64,000 nt of DNA from an uncultured Pelagibacteraceae bacterium. GTDB taxonomy: Bacteria; Pseudomonadota; Alphaproteobacteria; Pelagibacterales; Pelagibacteraceae. The position numbers and the translations under genes were made by a program. The stretch is taken from assembly GCA_902613915.1 (NCBI GenBank), contig CACMJB010000001.1, positions 1 through 64,000 on the forward strand. Direction: 5' to 3'. The notes under the pieces are model-generated. The model was not told the origin of the DNA and searched no databases. It saw only the letters and a list, made by a program, of their open reading frames with translations. This document shows positions 30,470-51,922 of the stretch, piece after piece; the first letter of the stretch is position 1, and each line of letters begins with the position of its first letter.

Positions 30470-31386
30470 TTTTTTTTAAATTTATCTCCAGCTTTTAACA
30501 GTATCTCTTCACCAACTTTTTTACCAATTGCTATTGCTTCATCAATATTTCCATCGGTTTCATATTCAAAACTCTCATCACCAATATCAGAAAATAATTG
30601 AGCTCTTAGTGTCAACTTGTTATCTTTGACAATAGCTAAACCTCCAACAGCAGTTTCACAATCCCCACTAATGGTTTGAAGCATTGATCTTTCAGCTTTT
30701 GCACAAAGTTCAGTCTCATTATGATTTATTTTTTTTAAAAGATTTTTAATATTAATATTATTCTTTTTACATTGAACTGCAATCACGCCTTGACCTACGG
30801 CTGGTAAAACTTGGTTCATTTCAAATGCAAAAGCTACTTTATTTTCTAAATTTATAGACTTTAAACCTGCGGCAGCCAAAATTATTCCGTCTAGTTCATT
30901 CTCATCTATTTTTTTTATTCTGGTATCAATATTCCCTCGAATATTCTTAACCATAATTTTTTTACTAATCTTTTTTAATTGAAGTTCTCTTCTACGAGAA
31001 CTTGATCCTATTTTTAACTTGTTATTTAATCCTTCTAGATTTTTAATTTTTGTGCTTACAATAACATCTCTAAAATCATTTCTTTTAAGATATGCTCCGA
31101 TTAAGAGGCTATTATTTTCAATTGAATCCATGTCTTTTAAAGAATGGACAGCTATATCAATTTCATCTTCTAATAACTTTTCTTCAATCTCTTTGCAAAA
31201 CAAATTTTTGCCACCAATTTCAGAAAGTTTTATGTTCTTATTAATATCACCTGATGTTTTTATGGTTTGAATAATAATATCTTTTTCTTCAAGATTTTTA
31301 TGTTCTTGTAATAATAAATCTTTAACTTTAGCGACATAAGCTAATGAAAGCTTACTACCTCTTGCTCCAATTGTAATTTTAGTCAT
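30466..31386 (-). CDS. hemC: Porphobilinogen deaminase
   Basis: GARGSKLSLAYV; AVHSLKDMD; GSSSRRRELQL; SGDCETAVGGLA. Confidence 0.96.
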   Translation of the reverse strand: MTKITIGARGSKLSLAYVAKVKDLLLQEHKNLEEKDIIIQTIKTSGDINKNIKLSEIGGKNLFCKEIEEKLLEDEIDIAVHSLKDMDSIENNSLLIGAYLKRNDFRDVIVSTKIKNLEGLNNKLKIGSSSRRRELQLKKISKKIMVKNIRGNIDTRIKKIDENELDGIILAAAGLKSINLENKVAFAFEMNQVLPAVGQGVIAVQCKKNNINIKNLLKKINHNETELCAKAERSMLQTISGDCETAVGGLAIVKDNKLTLRAQLFSDIGDESFEYETDGNIDEAIAIGKKVGEEILLKAGDKFKKK

Positions 31387-32519: not shown

Positions 32520-33799
32520 AAAGTTTCAAAATAACAGAAAAAGATGGGATAGCTTATTCTAAAAGATCTGGTGATAATAATGAAATTCATTTAAGCGAAT
32601 TAGCAGGTTACAATTCGATATTTGGAGAAAAAATTTGCCATGGTACTTTTGTTTTAGAAAAAATACTAAAAATAATTAACTTCAAAAAGATTTTAAACAA
32701 AGAGAAAAAGTTAAAAATTAAAGTCAATTTTTACTATCCAGCTTATTATGGTGAGAAGATATATTTAAAAAAGAGGAGAAACGAATATTTCGAAATATAC
32801 CAAGGTAAAAAAAGAATAATCGATATATTATTTCTAAAAAAAACAAAAAATTATAGTGAAAAAATTTTAAATCCTAATAAAAGCAAAATTTTTAAAAATA
32901 CAATTTTTCAGAAAAACAAAAGCTATGAAGAAAAAATATATTTTATTTTATCTATTATAAGTAAATATGTTGGAAAATTTTATCCTGGTAAGTATTCGAT
33001 AATAAAGGAAATAGAATTAATTTTGGAAGACGCTAAATTTATTAATGAAAGAAAAATCAAAATTAGATCTAAAAAATTGAACAAAAAATTTCCTATGATT
33101 AATAATCAGCTTAGCTCTAGAAATTTAACTGTTAATTTTTTATCTTTAATTAGACCTAAAATTATAAATGATAAGACAAAATTAAAGCAAAAATTAATAG
33201 GTAAAATTAAAAAAATTAAATATAACGCTTTAATTTTAGGTGGGAGCCAGGGTATTGGGAGAGTTATTTTCGAAATTTTAAAAAAAAATAACAATATAAT
33301 AAAAATAATTACTTATAATAAAAATTTAATTAAGTTAAATAATAAAAAAACTTTTTCATTCAAATTTGATATAAATAAAAACCATTTTACTCTTCAGAAA
33401 TATATAAAAAAATATTCTCCGCTAAGAATTTTTTATTTTATTTCACCAAAAATTTTTTTTGACAAAAAACTTTCAAAAGAAAAATATAAGGAGTTAAAAA
33501 TATTTTTTTTAGACTTCCCTAAAAAAATTCTTAATAAAACTTATAATCACAGATTAAGTTTTTTTTATCCATCTACCTCAAATATAAATAAAGATAAATC
33601 TGCAGACTATTCAAAAATTAAATTTCAAGCGGAATTACAACTTGCAAAAATTTGTAAAAAAAATAATATTAAATTTCAAACATTAAGATTGCCTGCAATT
33701 AATTCACGTCAATCTATTTCACTAATAAACCCTAATCCAGTCTCATTTACCGAATATTTAAATTCAAATTACGAATCATTTAAAAAAATTTTTTTATGA
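32516..33799 (+). CDS. Predicted MaoC-like dehydratase + short-chain dehydrogenase (SDR) fusion protein
   Basis: N-terminal GDNNEIHLSELAGYNSIFGEKICHG resembles the MaoC/hotdog motif; C-terminal NALILGGSQGIGRVIFEILKK resembles an SDR Rossmann motif. Confidence 0.65.
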   Translation: MKSFKITEKDGIAYSKRSGDNNEIHLSELAGYNSIFGEKICHGTFVLEKILKIINFKKILNKEKKLKIKVNFYYPAYYGEKIYLKKRRNEYFEIYQGKKRIIDILFLKKTKNYSEKILNPNKSKIFKNTIFQKNKSYEEKIYFILSIISKYVGKFYPGKYSIIKEIELILEDAKFINERKIKIRSKKLNKKFPMINNQLSSRNLTVNFLSLIRPKIINDKTKLKQKLIGKIKKIKYNALILGGSQGIGRVIFEILKKNNNIIKIITYNKNLIKLNNKKTFSFKFDINKNHFTLQKYIKKYSPLRIFYFISPKIFFDKKLSKEKYKELKIFFLDFPKKILNKTYNHRLSFFYPSTSNINKDKSADYSKIKFQAELQLAKICKKNNIKFQTLRLPAINSRQSISLINPNPVSFTEYLNSNYESFKKIFL

Positions 33800-43971: not shown

Positions 43972-44763
43972 ATGTATTTAAATATAAATTATTCAAATTT
44001 AGAAAAAGTCGCAGCTGAGAATTGTAATAATTATGTTGAAGCTGAACCATTTCCATCAATTGTTTTTGATAATTTTTTTAATACAACTATACTTGAAAAA
44101 ATCTTAAGTGATTTCCCAAAAAATATAAACAAAATTGGAAATGAATATAAAAATAAAGCTGAAAAAAAACTAAGCTTAAATGATCCCGAAAAATTGTCTG
44201 AAAGTACAAATAATTTTATCAACTATTTAAACTCTGCACCGTTTGTCAAATTTCTCAACAAGTTAACAGGCATAAAAGAGACACTTATTACAGACCCTTA
44301 TTTAGTTGGAGGTGGACTTCATGAATTGAGAAACGGTGGTCATTTAAATGTTCACGCGGATTTTAATCAACACCCTAAGATGAAATTAGACCGAAGACTA
44401 AATATTTTAATTTACCTAAATCATAATTGGAAAGAAAATAACGGAGGTCATCTTGAATTATGGGATAGAAACATGAAAGAGTGTAAAAAGAAAATATTTC
44501 CTTTATTTAATAGAATGGTTGTATTTAGTACGACTGATTTTTCATATCATGGCAATCCAGATATCGTAAAAACTGATGACAACAATTCAAGAAAATCTAT
44601 TGCGTTATACTATTATTCAAATGGAAGACCTAACGAAGAGCGAGAGCTTGGATTGCATTCTACAATTTTCAGAAAAAGACCTGGTACCGATGACATAGAT
44701 GGCAATTTAGAATTTAAAAAGTTGTTTGGAAAAATTTACTTTAAATCTAAAAAAAAAATATAG
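43972..44763 (+). CDS. 2-oxoglutarate/Fe(II)-dependent oxygenase (prolyl 4-hydroxylase-like)
   Basis: HADFNQHPKMKLDRRLNILIYLNHNWKENNGGHLELWD...SYHGNP metal/2OG motif. Confidence 0.88.
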   Translation: MYLNINYSNLEKVAAENCNNYVEAEPFPSIVFDNFFNTTILEKILSDFPKNINKIGNEYKNKAEKKLSLNDPEKLSESTNNFINYLNSAPFVKFLNKLTGIKETLITDPYLVGGGLHELRNGGHLNVHADFNQHPKMKLDRRLNILIYLNHNWKENNGGHLELWDRNMKECKKKIFPLFNRMVVFSTTDFSYHGNPDIVKTDDNNSRKSIALYYYSNGRPNEERELGLHSTIFRKRPGTDDIDGNLEFKKLFGKIYFKSKKKI

Positions 44764-44767
44764 TTTT

Positions 44768-44842
44768 TGGAGCGGGCAAAGGGGTTCGAACCCTCGACCT
44801 TCTCGTTGGCAACGAGACGCTCTACCACTGAGCTATGCCCGC
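44768..44842 (-). tRNA. tRNA-Gly (anticodon GCC), CCA encoded
   Basis: Reverse complement GCGGGCATAGCTCAGTGGTAGAGCGTCTCGTTGCCAACGAGAAGGTCGAGGGTTCGAACCCCTTTGCCCGCTCCA folds as a cloverleaf with TTGCCAA anticodon loop. Confidence 0.97.
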
Positions 44843-44937
44843 AATATAAAAATAGCTTAACCTAAATTTTATTACAAAACAAGAATTTGCAACTAATTAT
44901 TATTTAAATTAAACATCAAAAATATTAATAAAAAACT

Positions 44938-45603
44938 ATGATTAAAGAAAAGCTTCGACGTGGAACGATTTTATATAAAATCTATTTATACTATAATATT
45001 TTTATTAGATATCGTTTCTTAAGAAATAAAAAATCATTTTCACAGTTTGGTGAAGATTTATTTATTGAAGAGTTTTTCGCCAATCAAAAAGAAGGTAAAT
45101 ATGTAGATCTTGGTGCTTTCCATCCAATGAGAATGAGCAATACTTTTCTACTTTATAAAAAAGGATGGTCAGGAACAAATGTGGATTTGAATCCAATTTC
45201 AATCGATTTTTTTAATCTTGCTAGAAAAAACGATAATAATATTTGTGCTTTGATAAGTGATCAGGGTAACCAGTTGAAAAATGCATATTTTGTAAATCCA
45301 TGGAGTTCAGCAAATAGTATAAACATAAGTGAGAATACTAAAATTAAAAAAGAGATGATAACTGAAACTTTTAGTAATATTGTAAATCATGATTTTGATT
45401 TTTTAAATATTGATCTTGAAGGTCATGATTATAATGTTTTGAAAACAATTAATTTTAATAAATTTCACCCTAAGCTCATATGCATCGAAATATTAAGTGA
45501 TGATCAAAATAAAAAAAGTATATTTGATCACATGACGCAAAATAATTTTGTTTTTCTTAAAAATCTTGGGCCAAGCTTTTTTTTTACAAGAGGAATTAAA
45601 TGA
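44938..45603 (+). CDS. FkbM-family methyltransferase
   Basis: SQFGEDLFIEEFF...YVDLGAFHPMRMSNTFLLYKKGWSGTNVDLNP; DFLNIDLEGHDYNVLKTI. Confidence 0.85.
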   Translation: MIKEKLRRGTILYKIYLYYNIFIRYRFLRNKKSFSQFGEDLFIEEFFANQKEGKYVDLGAFHPMRMSNTFLLYKKGWSGTNVDLNPISIDFFNLARKNDNNICALISDQGNQLKNAYFVNPWSSANSINISENTKIKKEMITETFSNIVNHDFDFLNIDLEGHDYNVLKTINFNKFHPKLICIEILSDDQNKKSIFDHMTQNNFVFLKNLGPSFFFTRGIK

Positions 45604-46421
45604 GAGTTATTGACTGTTTTTCCTATTTTGATGAGGATATAATTTTAGAGATAAGGCTTTCAACTTTATACGATTACGTTGATGAATTTGTTATTTGTGA
45701 AGCCACATTAGATCATGCAGGAAATGAAAAAAAACTTAATTTTGATTTGGATAAGTTTAAGGAATACAAGAATAAAATTAATTATATTGTAATTGATGAT
45801 TTACCAAAAGAGGTGAAAAAATTTAAAAAAAATTGGCATCCAGCACATGCACGAGATCAGTTTCAAAGAAATGCTCTTGTACGAGGTATTAATCATTGTA
45901 ACGATAACGATTTAATAATGATTTCTGATTTGGATGAGATACCAAACCCAAAAAAAATTTCAAGTTTTGGAAGTGAAAATAATTATGTCTGCTTTGTACA
46001 AAATAATTATTTATTAAAATTTAATTTACTTAATACAACTGAACCTTACTGGTATGGCACAAGAATGTGTAGAAAAAAAAATTTAAAATCACCTCAATGG
46101 CTAAGAGAAATTAAAGCAAGAAAATTACCATTCTATAAATTTTATAAGCCTCGATTTGATGAATTTATACAAGACGGTGGATGGCACTTTAGTTCAGTGA
46201 AAGACGCGAAGGGTATTTATAAGAAGTTAAACTGTTATTCAGAGCAGCAATGGAATAACGATAAATATAAAAATATTGATATTATTGAAAAAAAAATTTT
46301 TGAAAAAAAAGATCTTTTTAATAGAGATTATAAGTATAAAGTGGTTAATATTGACAATTCTTTTCCAGATTTTATTTTTAAAAATCAAGAAAGATTAAAA
46401 GATTTAATTTATAAGGAATAA
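45600..46421 (+). CDS. Glycosyltransferase family 17-like protein
   Basis: MRVIDCFSYFDEDIILEIRLSTLYDYVDEFVICEATLDHAG; MISDLDEIPNP; GGWHFSS. Confidence 0.88.
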   Translation: MRVIDCFSYFDEDIILEIRLSTLYDYVDEFVICEATLDHAGNEKKLNFDLDKFKEYKNKINYIVIDDLPKEVKKFKKNWHPAHARDQFQRNALVRGINHCNDNDLIMISDLDEIPNPKKISSFGSENNYVCFVQNNYLLKFNLLNTTEPYWYGTRMCRKKNLKSPQWLREIKARKLPFYKFYKPRFDEFIQDGGWHFSSVKDAKGIYKKLNCYSEQQWNNDKYKNIDIIEKKIFEKKDLFNRDYKYKVVNIDNSFPDFIFKNQERLKDLIYKE

Positions 46422-49827: not shown

Positions 49828-50832
49828 TTAATACTCTCTGTAAAATTTTATTAATTTATGTACTTTGTCTGGGTTTGTTTCTGGTAGCATACCATGTCCT
49901 AGATTAAAAACATAAGGCAAACCTTTGAATGCGTCTAAATATTTTTTAGCATTATCGTAGATTTCCTCATCCGACAGTAATAAAATTTTTGGGTCTAATC
50001 CCCCTTGAATTACTGTTTCTTTTAGATTTTCTTTTGCCCACTTAGGGTCAACACTGTAATCTATATTTATTCCGTCTGGTTTAACTAAATTATTAAAATT
50101 TTTATAGTTTTCTTTTATACCTCTTGGAAAACAGATTACTGGTATCCCTTTCTTTTTACAAAAATCAACGATTTTAAAATTTGGCACATAGCAAAAATTA
50201 TTAAGATCTTCTTGTGGTATCAATCCAGCCCAAGATTCAAAAATTTGAACTACGTCAGCTCCCGCCCTAATTTGATTTTCAATATGTAAACAAAGATAAT
50301 TAATTAACTTTTCTAATATCAAGCTAACTTCTTTTTTTTGTTTATTAATTATTTTTAAATCAATTTCATTTTTATTTTGTTTAGCTCCAATCATGTATAT
50401 TAACAAAGTCCATGGAGCTCCTATAAAAGATATTAATGATTTTTCTTTATTTAATTTTTTTCTAGTAATTTCTATCGCTTTATAGACTGGTTTAAGTTTT
50501 TCAATAAATTCAAGATCATTATTTTTTAAAAATTTATCTAAATTAAAAGTTTCTAATTTTGGCCCATGATTTTTTAAAAATTCAACTTTTTGATTAAGGG
50601 CATAAGGTACCATCAAAATATCCGAAAAAATTATTGCGGAATCCAAATTAAATCTCTGAATAGGTTGTAAGGTAATTTCTGAACTCAACTCGCTATTTAG
50701 GCAAAGATTAATAAAGTTTTGGTTTTGTGATCTAATTTTTCGAAATTCAGGTAAATATCGACCTGCTTGTCTCATAAACCATACTGATTTACAAATTTTT
50801 TTATTTATTAAAATTTCTTTAAGATTATTCAT
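49828..50832 (-). CDS. hemE: Uroporphyrinogen decarboxylase
   Basis: VWFMRQAGRYLPEFRKIR; IGAPWTLLIYMI; NLGHGMLPETNPDKV. Confidence 0.97.
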   Translation of the reverse strand: MNNLKEILINKKICKSVWFMRQAGRYLPEFRKIRSQNQNFINLCLNSELSSEITLQPIQRFNLDSAIIFSDILMVPYALNQKVEFLKNHGPKLETFNLDKFLKNNDLEFIEKLKPVYKAIEITRKKLNKEKSLISFIGAPWTLLIYMIGAKQNKNEIDLKIINKQKKEVSLILEKLINYLCLHIENQIRAGADVVQIFESWAGLIPQEDLNNFCYVPNFKIVDFCKKKGIPVICFPRGIKENYKNFNNLVKPDGINIDYSVDPKWAKENLKETVIQGGLDPKILLLSDEEIYDNAKKYLDAFKGLPYVFNLGHGMLPETNPDKVHKLIKFYREY

Positions 50833-51103
50833 TAAATAATAAAAAGTTTATAAGTGTAATAAATGTTTTAGGTCCTGTTATTTAGTTATATAACGAATTA
50901 TACATTTTTTATACATAAGTCCGTTTATAATTATCCTTTATATGAGTGATTTTCGAACGTTTACCGATCTTATAAACATTGAAAAAAGCATATTATTAAC
51001 ATTCAACAAAATGTTTAAATAGTGTTAATTAATGTTAGTTATTTTTTCTTCTTTTTTTTTAATATGTAGAAAACTAACTAATTAATATTTTATTAACAAA
51101 GTT
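50833..51103. other. Candidate chromosomal replication origin (oriC)
   Basis: 271-bp AT-rich intergenic at a divergence point between hemE and ppsR-maf-aroE-coaE-dnaQ; degenerate DnaA-box-like 9-mers TTATACATA (50909), TTATAAACA (50970), TTATACATT (50898). Confidence 0.6.
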
Positions 51104-51922
51104 ATGAACGAAAAATACAATGTATATCTTGTGTCTGACTCAACTGGTGAAACGTTAGATAGAATATTTTTATCTTTAAAATCACAATTTTCTAACTTCG
51201 AATATAATAAGAAAGAATTTGCTTTTGTAAGAACCGAGCAGCAAATAGATAAAATTATCAAAGAATGTAATCAAATAGATAATGCTATAATATTATATAC
51301 AATTGTTGAGACTAAATTGGCTAAATACCTTGCAAATCAGAGTGAAAAATTTACTGTTCCTTGTTTTGGAGTTTTAGGAAACTTAATTTTAAGCTTCTCT
51401 AAATTACTTAATCAAAAAGCCATTCATAAACCAAGCGCTCAACACGTTTTAGATGACGATTATTATAAAAGAATAGAGGCTATTCAATTTACAATGTCGC
51501 ACGATGATGGAAAAAAAATAGACGATATTAATAATGCAGATGTAATTTTGTTAGGTGTGAGCAGAACCAGCAAAACCCCAACTTCTATATATCTAGCCAA
51601 CAGGGGTTACAAAACAGTAAACATTCCTCTAGTTTTGGATCAAAAAATACCTGAAAATCTAAAGTCCAACTATACTTCTTGTATAATAGGTTTGGTGGCA
51701 GATCCTGAGAGATTATCTGATATTAGGCGAAATAGAGTAGCAATAATGAAGGACCAAAAACTCAAAGAGTACACCGATCTAGATGCAATAAAAAAAGAGG
51801 TTGAAGATTCTAAAAAACTTTTTAAAAAAAATAATTGGCCAGTAATCGATGTTACAAGGAGATCTGTAGAGGAAACGGCTGCTTCGATTTTAAAGATCAT
51901 TGACATAAAAAGAAATAAATGA
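51104..51922 (+). CDS. ppsR: Pyruvate, water/phosphate dikinase regulatory protein (kinase-pyrophosphorylase, DUF299)
   Basis: VYLVSDSTGETLDRI; LLGVSRTSKTPTSIYLANRGYKTVNIPLV; GLVADPERLSDIRRNR. Confidence 0.95.
   Translation: MNEKYNVYLVSDSTGETLDRIFLSLKSQFSNFEYNKKEFAFVRTEQQIDKIIKECNQIDNAIILYTIVETKLAKYLANQSEKFTVPCFGVLGNLILSFSKLLNQKAIHKPSAQHVLDDDYYKRIEAIQFTMSHDDGKKIDDINNADVILLGVSRTSKTPTSIYLANRGYKTVNIPLVLDQKIPENLKSNYTSCIIGLVADPERLSDIRRNRVAIMKDQKLKEYTDLDAIKKEVEDSKKLFKKNNWPVIDVTRRSVEETAASILKIIDIKRNK

Follow-up and report, generated by a model that had tools for sequence, protein, structure and literature searches.

The DNA analyzed here (the window) comprises bases 1 to 64,000 of a 180,054-base contig from a draft genome of 21 contigs and 1.008 Mb, and the closest records that we found for it are SAR11 single-cell genomes and HIMB058. 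Within the window, a 271-bp spacer separates two divergent series of genes, rho, hemJ, hemH, and hemE running leftward and ppsR, maf, aroE, coaE, and dnaQ running rightward. Profile searches confirmed hemE and ppsR (Table 1); the remaining genes presumably are what these names say, which were given by recognizing the sequences. The spacer has a GC content of 18.8%, compared with 30.4% for the window, an AT richness as in origins of the hemE/COG1806 type, and it lies where such alphaproteobacterial origins are located, between hemE and the COG1806 (DUF299) gene ppsR. When gaps were taken between open reading frames of at least 50 amino acids, it was the longest of the window and the second longest of the contig. 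An earlier sequence-only reading had proposed a chromosomal origin at this place; its coordinates, neighboring genes, and strand divergence were borne out, as was its remark that this is the longest gap nearby. No RNA family was found in the spacer by an Rfam search, and GANTC, the CcrM site, is absent from the 271 bp; SAR11 is named among the exceptions in the CcrM survey of a Caulobacter methylation study (PMC3973325). Elsewhere in the window, Rfam matched RF01793 (ffh sRNA) at positions 1719 to 1771 on the minus strand (42.4 bits). At 43972 to 46421, near the spacer, genes resembling those for an oxygenase, an FkbM-type methyltransferase, and a glycosyltransferase stand next to a tRNA-Gly gene, which may mark the border of a variable surface-polysaccharide region.

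Table 1. Genes and sequence elements at the hemE/ppsR locus (positions in the window)
Feature	Position	Strand	Remarks
hemE, uroporphyrinogen decarboxylase, left boundary gene	49828..50832	-	TIGR01464, 321.6 bits, above the cut-off of 302.95
AT-rich gap separating the divergent hemE and ppsR, putative oriC	50833..51103		271 bp, 18.8% GC; arrangement and length conserved in SAR11
Weak DnaA-box-like 9-mer TTATACATT, first of a pair 11 bp apart	50898..50906	+	Two mismatches to TTATNCACA; TTATACA form in most of 75 sequences
DnaA-box-like 9-mer TTATACATA, second of the pair	50909..50917	+	One mismatch to TTATNCACA; mean identity 0.90
DnaA-box-like 9-mer TTATAAACA	50970..50978	+	Within one mismatch of TTATNCACA; identical in 60/75, mean identity 0.97
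DnaA-box-like 9-mer TTATTAACA, 23 bp from the 50970 box	50993..51001	+	One mismatch to TTATNCACA; TTATTAACA in 36/75, TTATCAACA in 17/75
TAATTAACA, conserved weak box-like element	51023..51031	-	Two mismatches to TTATNCACA; identical in 50/75, mean identity 0.96
Least stable 60 bp within the spacer, a T-rich tract and candidate DNA-unwinding element	51035..51094		99.7th percentile of instability in the 180-kb contig; role inferred
DnaA-box-like 9-mer TTATTAACA, starting 14 bp before the ppsR ATG	51090..51098	+	One mismatch to TTATNCACA; identical in 60/75
ppsR (DUF299/COG1806), right boundary gene	51104..51922	+	NF003742, 321.8 bits, above the cut-off of 225

The spacer contains no exact copy of the consensus DnaA box TTATNCACA. 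Four 9-mers within one mismatch of it are clustered there (50909, 50970, 50993, and 51090), the maximum reached in the window. The sequence-only reading had pointed to TTATACATT at 50898, TTATACATA at 50909, and TTATAAACA at 50970, all of which are present, and had missed TTATTAACA at 50993 and 51090. The 9-mers have the form TTATNNACA, A frequently replacing the C of the consensus, and show a preferred orientation and preferred spacings. Exact TTATNNACA occurs three times, compared with 0.17 expected, and none of 200 dinucleotide shuffles reached three, so that the cluster is not due to chance; the pattern was picked after the spacers of relatives had been seen. Three copies in 271 bp were unique to the spacer in the 180-kb contig and did not recur in 12 other stretches sampled from the genome, and within this sample no other intergenic region matched its site density. 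The claim of uniqueness rests on TTATNNACA, because four sites within one mismatch are also found at two other places in the contig.

The arrangement is conserved across SAR11. All 30 loci of a first search showed divergent hemE, spacer, and ppsR (hemE was matched only in part in two), and the same order was found in 74 of the 74 informative SAR11 contigs, with spacers of 263 to 275 bp; these contigs were drawn from 80 loci in named records, the other six having ppsR within about 300 bp of the contig or locus start. Over 75 SAR11 sequences, mean identity to the window was 0.923 for the four boxes and 0.677 for the whole spacer, a contrast drawn inside one alignment of related and thus not independent sequences. 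The four-box identity was equalled by none of 262 circular shifts and by 1 in 10,000 random placements. TTATNNACA occurs 2.55 times per spacer in the 74 relatives (0.33 expected) and 3.37 times in other genera (0.29 expected; n = 19). Spacings of 23 and 11 bp between boxes are commoner than in shuffles, the 23-bp spacing being found in 69 of the 75 spacers, compared with 1.5 expected. The box 14 bp before the ppsR start is also seen in the closed genomes G001 (TTATAAACA) and G009 (TTTTCCACA). Other SAR11 genera of the same family (e.g., loci L015, L018, and L026) resemble the window in spacer position, length class, element order, and the box near the ppsR start, but 58% of their 19 spacers keep an exact TTATNCACA, compared with 1% in the window's genus. 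Absence of the 9-mers from relatives had been named at the outset as evidence that would count against an origin; their conservation over the 75 sequences is strong.

The hemE/COG1806 origin has been established experimentally in Caulobacter and predicted in Rickettsia and its relatives (PMC1914354), and the neighboring genes of the window match this published type; the sequence-only reading had likewise placed the Caulobacter and Rickettsia origins beside hemE. Caulobacter crescentus Cori (hemE / CC0001, COG1806) shares both divergent flanking genes and an AT-rich intergenic origin with the window (PMC1914354), and in both cases dnaA lies away from the origin. Cori has G-boxes (TGATCCACA) and W-boxes, whereas the boxes of the window are TTATNAACA-like, and the DnaA boxes of Caulobacter also depart from the TTATNCACA consensus (PMC4285127). 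Five CtrA sites are found in Cori, compared with a single TTAA-N7-TTAA and no CtrA ortholog above the cut-off here; CtrA sites are not universal in hemE-type origins, and several members of the Rickettsia/Wolbachia type have few of them, like the window (PMC1914354). The origins of Rickettsia prowazekii and Wolbachia likewise have a hemE boundary in a reduced, AT-rich genome, and in Wolbachia the partner gene has changed (PMC1914354), as it has in the SAR11 sister family described below. The predictions for these two organisms use TTATNCACA boxes and CtrA/IHF motifs, whereas the window has no exact box, and the Caulobacter and Rickettsia origins exceed 400 bp (PMC1914354), compared with 271 bp in the window. 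A literature search, mostly without subscription journals, found no paper reporting a hemE/ppsR origin for SAR11. The evidence gives good support to the view that the spacer represents a further oriC of the hemE/COG1806 type, differing in the form of its boxes (TTATNAACA) and in the absence of CtrA.

We averaged third-position GC (GC3) skew over both gene strands in 20 stretches of 20 kb per genome for three closed genomes from three genera. Mean values to the left and right of ppsR were -0.046 and 0.060, -0.035 and 0.050, and -0.046 and 0.058. When contiguous regions of six closed genomes and the window's own contig were pooled, the change point was placed +3 kb from ppsR, and the dnaA position was about 39 log-likelihood units worse in this seven-genome pool. 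The pooled signal comes from G001, G009, and G020, whose individual change points fall within -7 to +18 kb; G005 supports it, G015 shows no GC3 skew change at ppsR, and G011 is ambiguous, a change point at +68 kb being preferred in a model with free level. As indirect support, gene order agrees with that of relatives in 337 of 346 votes (97%) when the origin is set at 51.1 kb. dnaA lies 61 to 72 kb from ppsR, and the distance between parB and ppsR is 9 to 21 kb in each of the 11 genomes examined. Raw skew, with its minimum in the window at 31,368, was rejected as an origin marker, as it tracks gene strand, and third-position T/A skew was dropped, its best position on the own contig being +35 kb and its polarity varying between genomes. 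A skew minimum elsewhere had been named beforehand as evidence against the spacer, and the outcome was divided: the closed relatives change sign at ppsR and reject dnaA, but the own genome shows no detectable GC3 asymmetry, unlike these relatives in other genera.

The conservation of the 9-mers, the skew switch of the relatives, and the neighboring genes support the original proposal of an oriC with degenerate DnaA boxes. We consider it very probable, judging by sequence, that the hemE/ppsR spacer is oriC, the single chromosomal origin, kept in place since the alphaproteobacterial ancestor, and the constraint on the boxes suggests that they function as such. It is improbable that the spacer serves only as promoter and leader of the divergent genes hemE and ppsR, its conserved words being regulator or promoter elements. 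Two divergent genes starting at the spacer require promoters, and TTATAA/TATAAT-like words are present, but the other divergent-gene gaps of the contig measure at most 157 bp and hold at most one TTATNNACA (twelve longest gaps), and the skew switch of the closed relatives falls at the spacer. The sister family of the same order (f2) also argues against a mere promoter. No ppsR match was found among its listed genomes, and in the five hemE loci examined (L271, L272, L273, L274, and L275) maf adjoins hemE across a gap. This gap measures 271 bp in L271 and 275 bp in L273, and box words of the CACA type occur in it. This family has lost one boundary gene and, as its sequences indicate, retained the putative origin gap; the size of the spacer was thus kept after the loss of ppsR, and the promoter of a lost gene needs no upkeep at such length.

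We regard it as highly unlikely that the spacer was the ancestral origin but ceased to function in clade II, with replication now beginning at a new origin elsewhere. In favor of such a move, GC3 skew on the own contig does not change at the spacer (z = -0.1), but the asymmetry is undetectable on the other own contigs too: leading and lagging genes, assigned from relatives, did not differ in GC3 on the own contig or on others (the latter contributing only 64 genes). Because no GC3 strand asymmetry was seen on any contig sampled, the own-genome skew test is uninformative, and the missing skew would represent a lost signal and not an origin elsewhere, which is a weak point of our reading. The 9-mers, moreover, are still strongly constrained within the window's genus, and the contig remains colinear with relatives. 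An origin beside dnaA, as in many other bacteria, is just as improbable: a 216-bp AT-rich gap (contig 122372 to 122587; 21% GC) precedes dnaA and the GC3 of the own contig favors the dnaA position over the spacer by 1.2 log-likelihood units, which is not significant, but the gap is without any TTATNNACA, and a skew switch at dnaA is strongly rejected for G001, G009, G020, and the pool.

SAR11 is among the most abundant bacterial groups in the ocean. Metagenomic estimates of growth rate rely on the origin, and a defined one would give a fixed anchor for SAR11 clade II. No robust reference was identified for this clade in a published study, whose clade II genome was HIMB058 (PMC9589681). The spacer also offers a short conserved sequence for studying a CtrA-free alphaproteobacterial origin.

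The DnaA of the own genome is intact and encoded at contig position 122963, 72 kb from the spacer. Its domain IV aligns with that of E. coli (1j1v), RDHTTV included, and the DNA-binding domain is canonical. Tentatively, and with slightly less than even confidence, we suggest that the DnaA-box consensus in use in this clade II genus has moved from TTATNCACA to TTATNAACA, which would make this an origin of weak boxes only, run without CtrA by a DnaA whose DNA-binding domain is still canonical. As its genome was streamlined, the genus may also have simplified its control of initiation. At the putative origin in the spacer, DnaA would bind the weak boxes co-operatively, and its filament, starting on the spaced pairs, would extend towards the unstable T-rich tract beside ppsR and open it, after which the helicase would be loaded and forks would leave in both directions. 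The T-rich tract noticed in the sequence-only reading does exist, with bounds nearer 51042 to 51061 than the 51048 to 51060 originally given. The candidate unwinding element around it is not the absolute stability minimum of the contig, which lies near 33.28 kb; by nearest-neighbor energy, the least stable DNA of the 180 kb is at window positions 33275 to 33545, outside the spacer. For IHF, the spacer has a single loose WATCAN5WTR match on the minus strand and no clear site, and the genome has two HU/IHF-family genes.

No CtrA ortholog above the cut-off was found, the top match to the CtrA model being PhoB (143.8 bits, compared with a cut-off of 350). The TTAA words were rejected as CtrA boxes because the ortholog is missing, and with only one TTAA-N7-TTAA and no CtrA gene the spacer does not fit the CtrA-controlled Caulobacter subtype. 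As CtrA is missing, initiation would be set by the level and nucleotide state of DnaA and not by CtrA blockade as in Caulobacter. Outside the window, the region at contig position 79382 (L111) encodes a 201-amino-acid protein that ends in a response-regulator DNA-binding domain and in which no receiver domain was recognized, an orphan origin-proximal regulator located 28 kb from the putative origin, and similar weak matches are found near parB in relatives.
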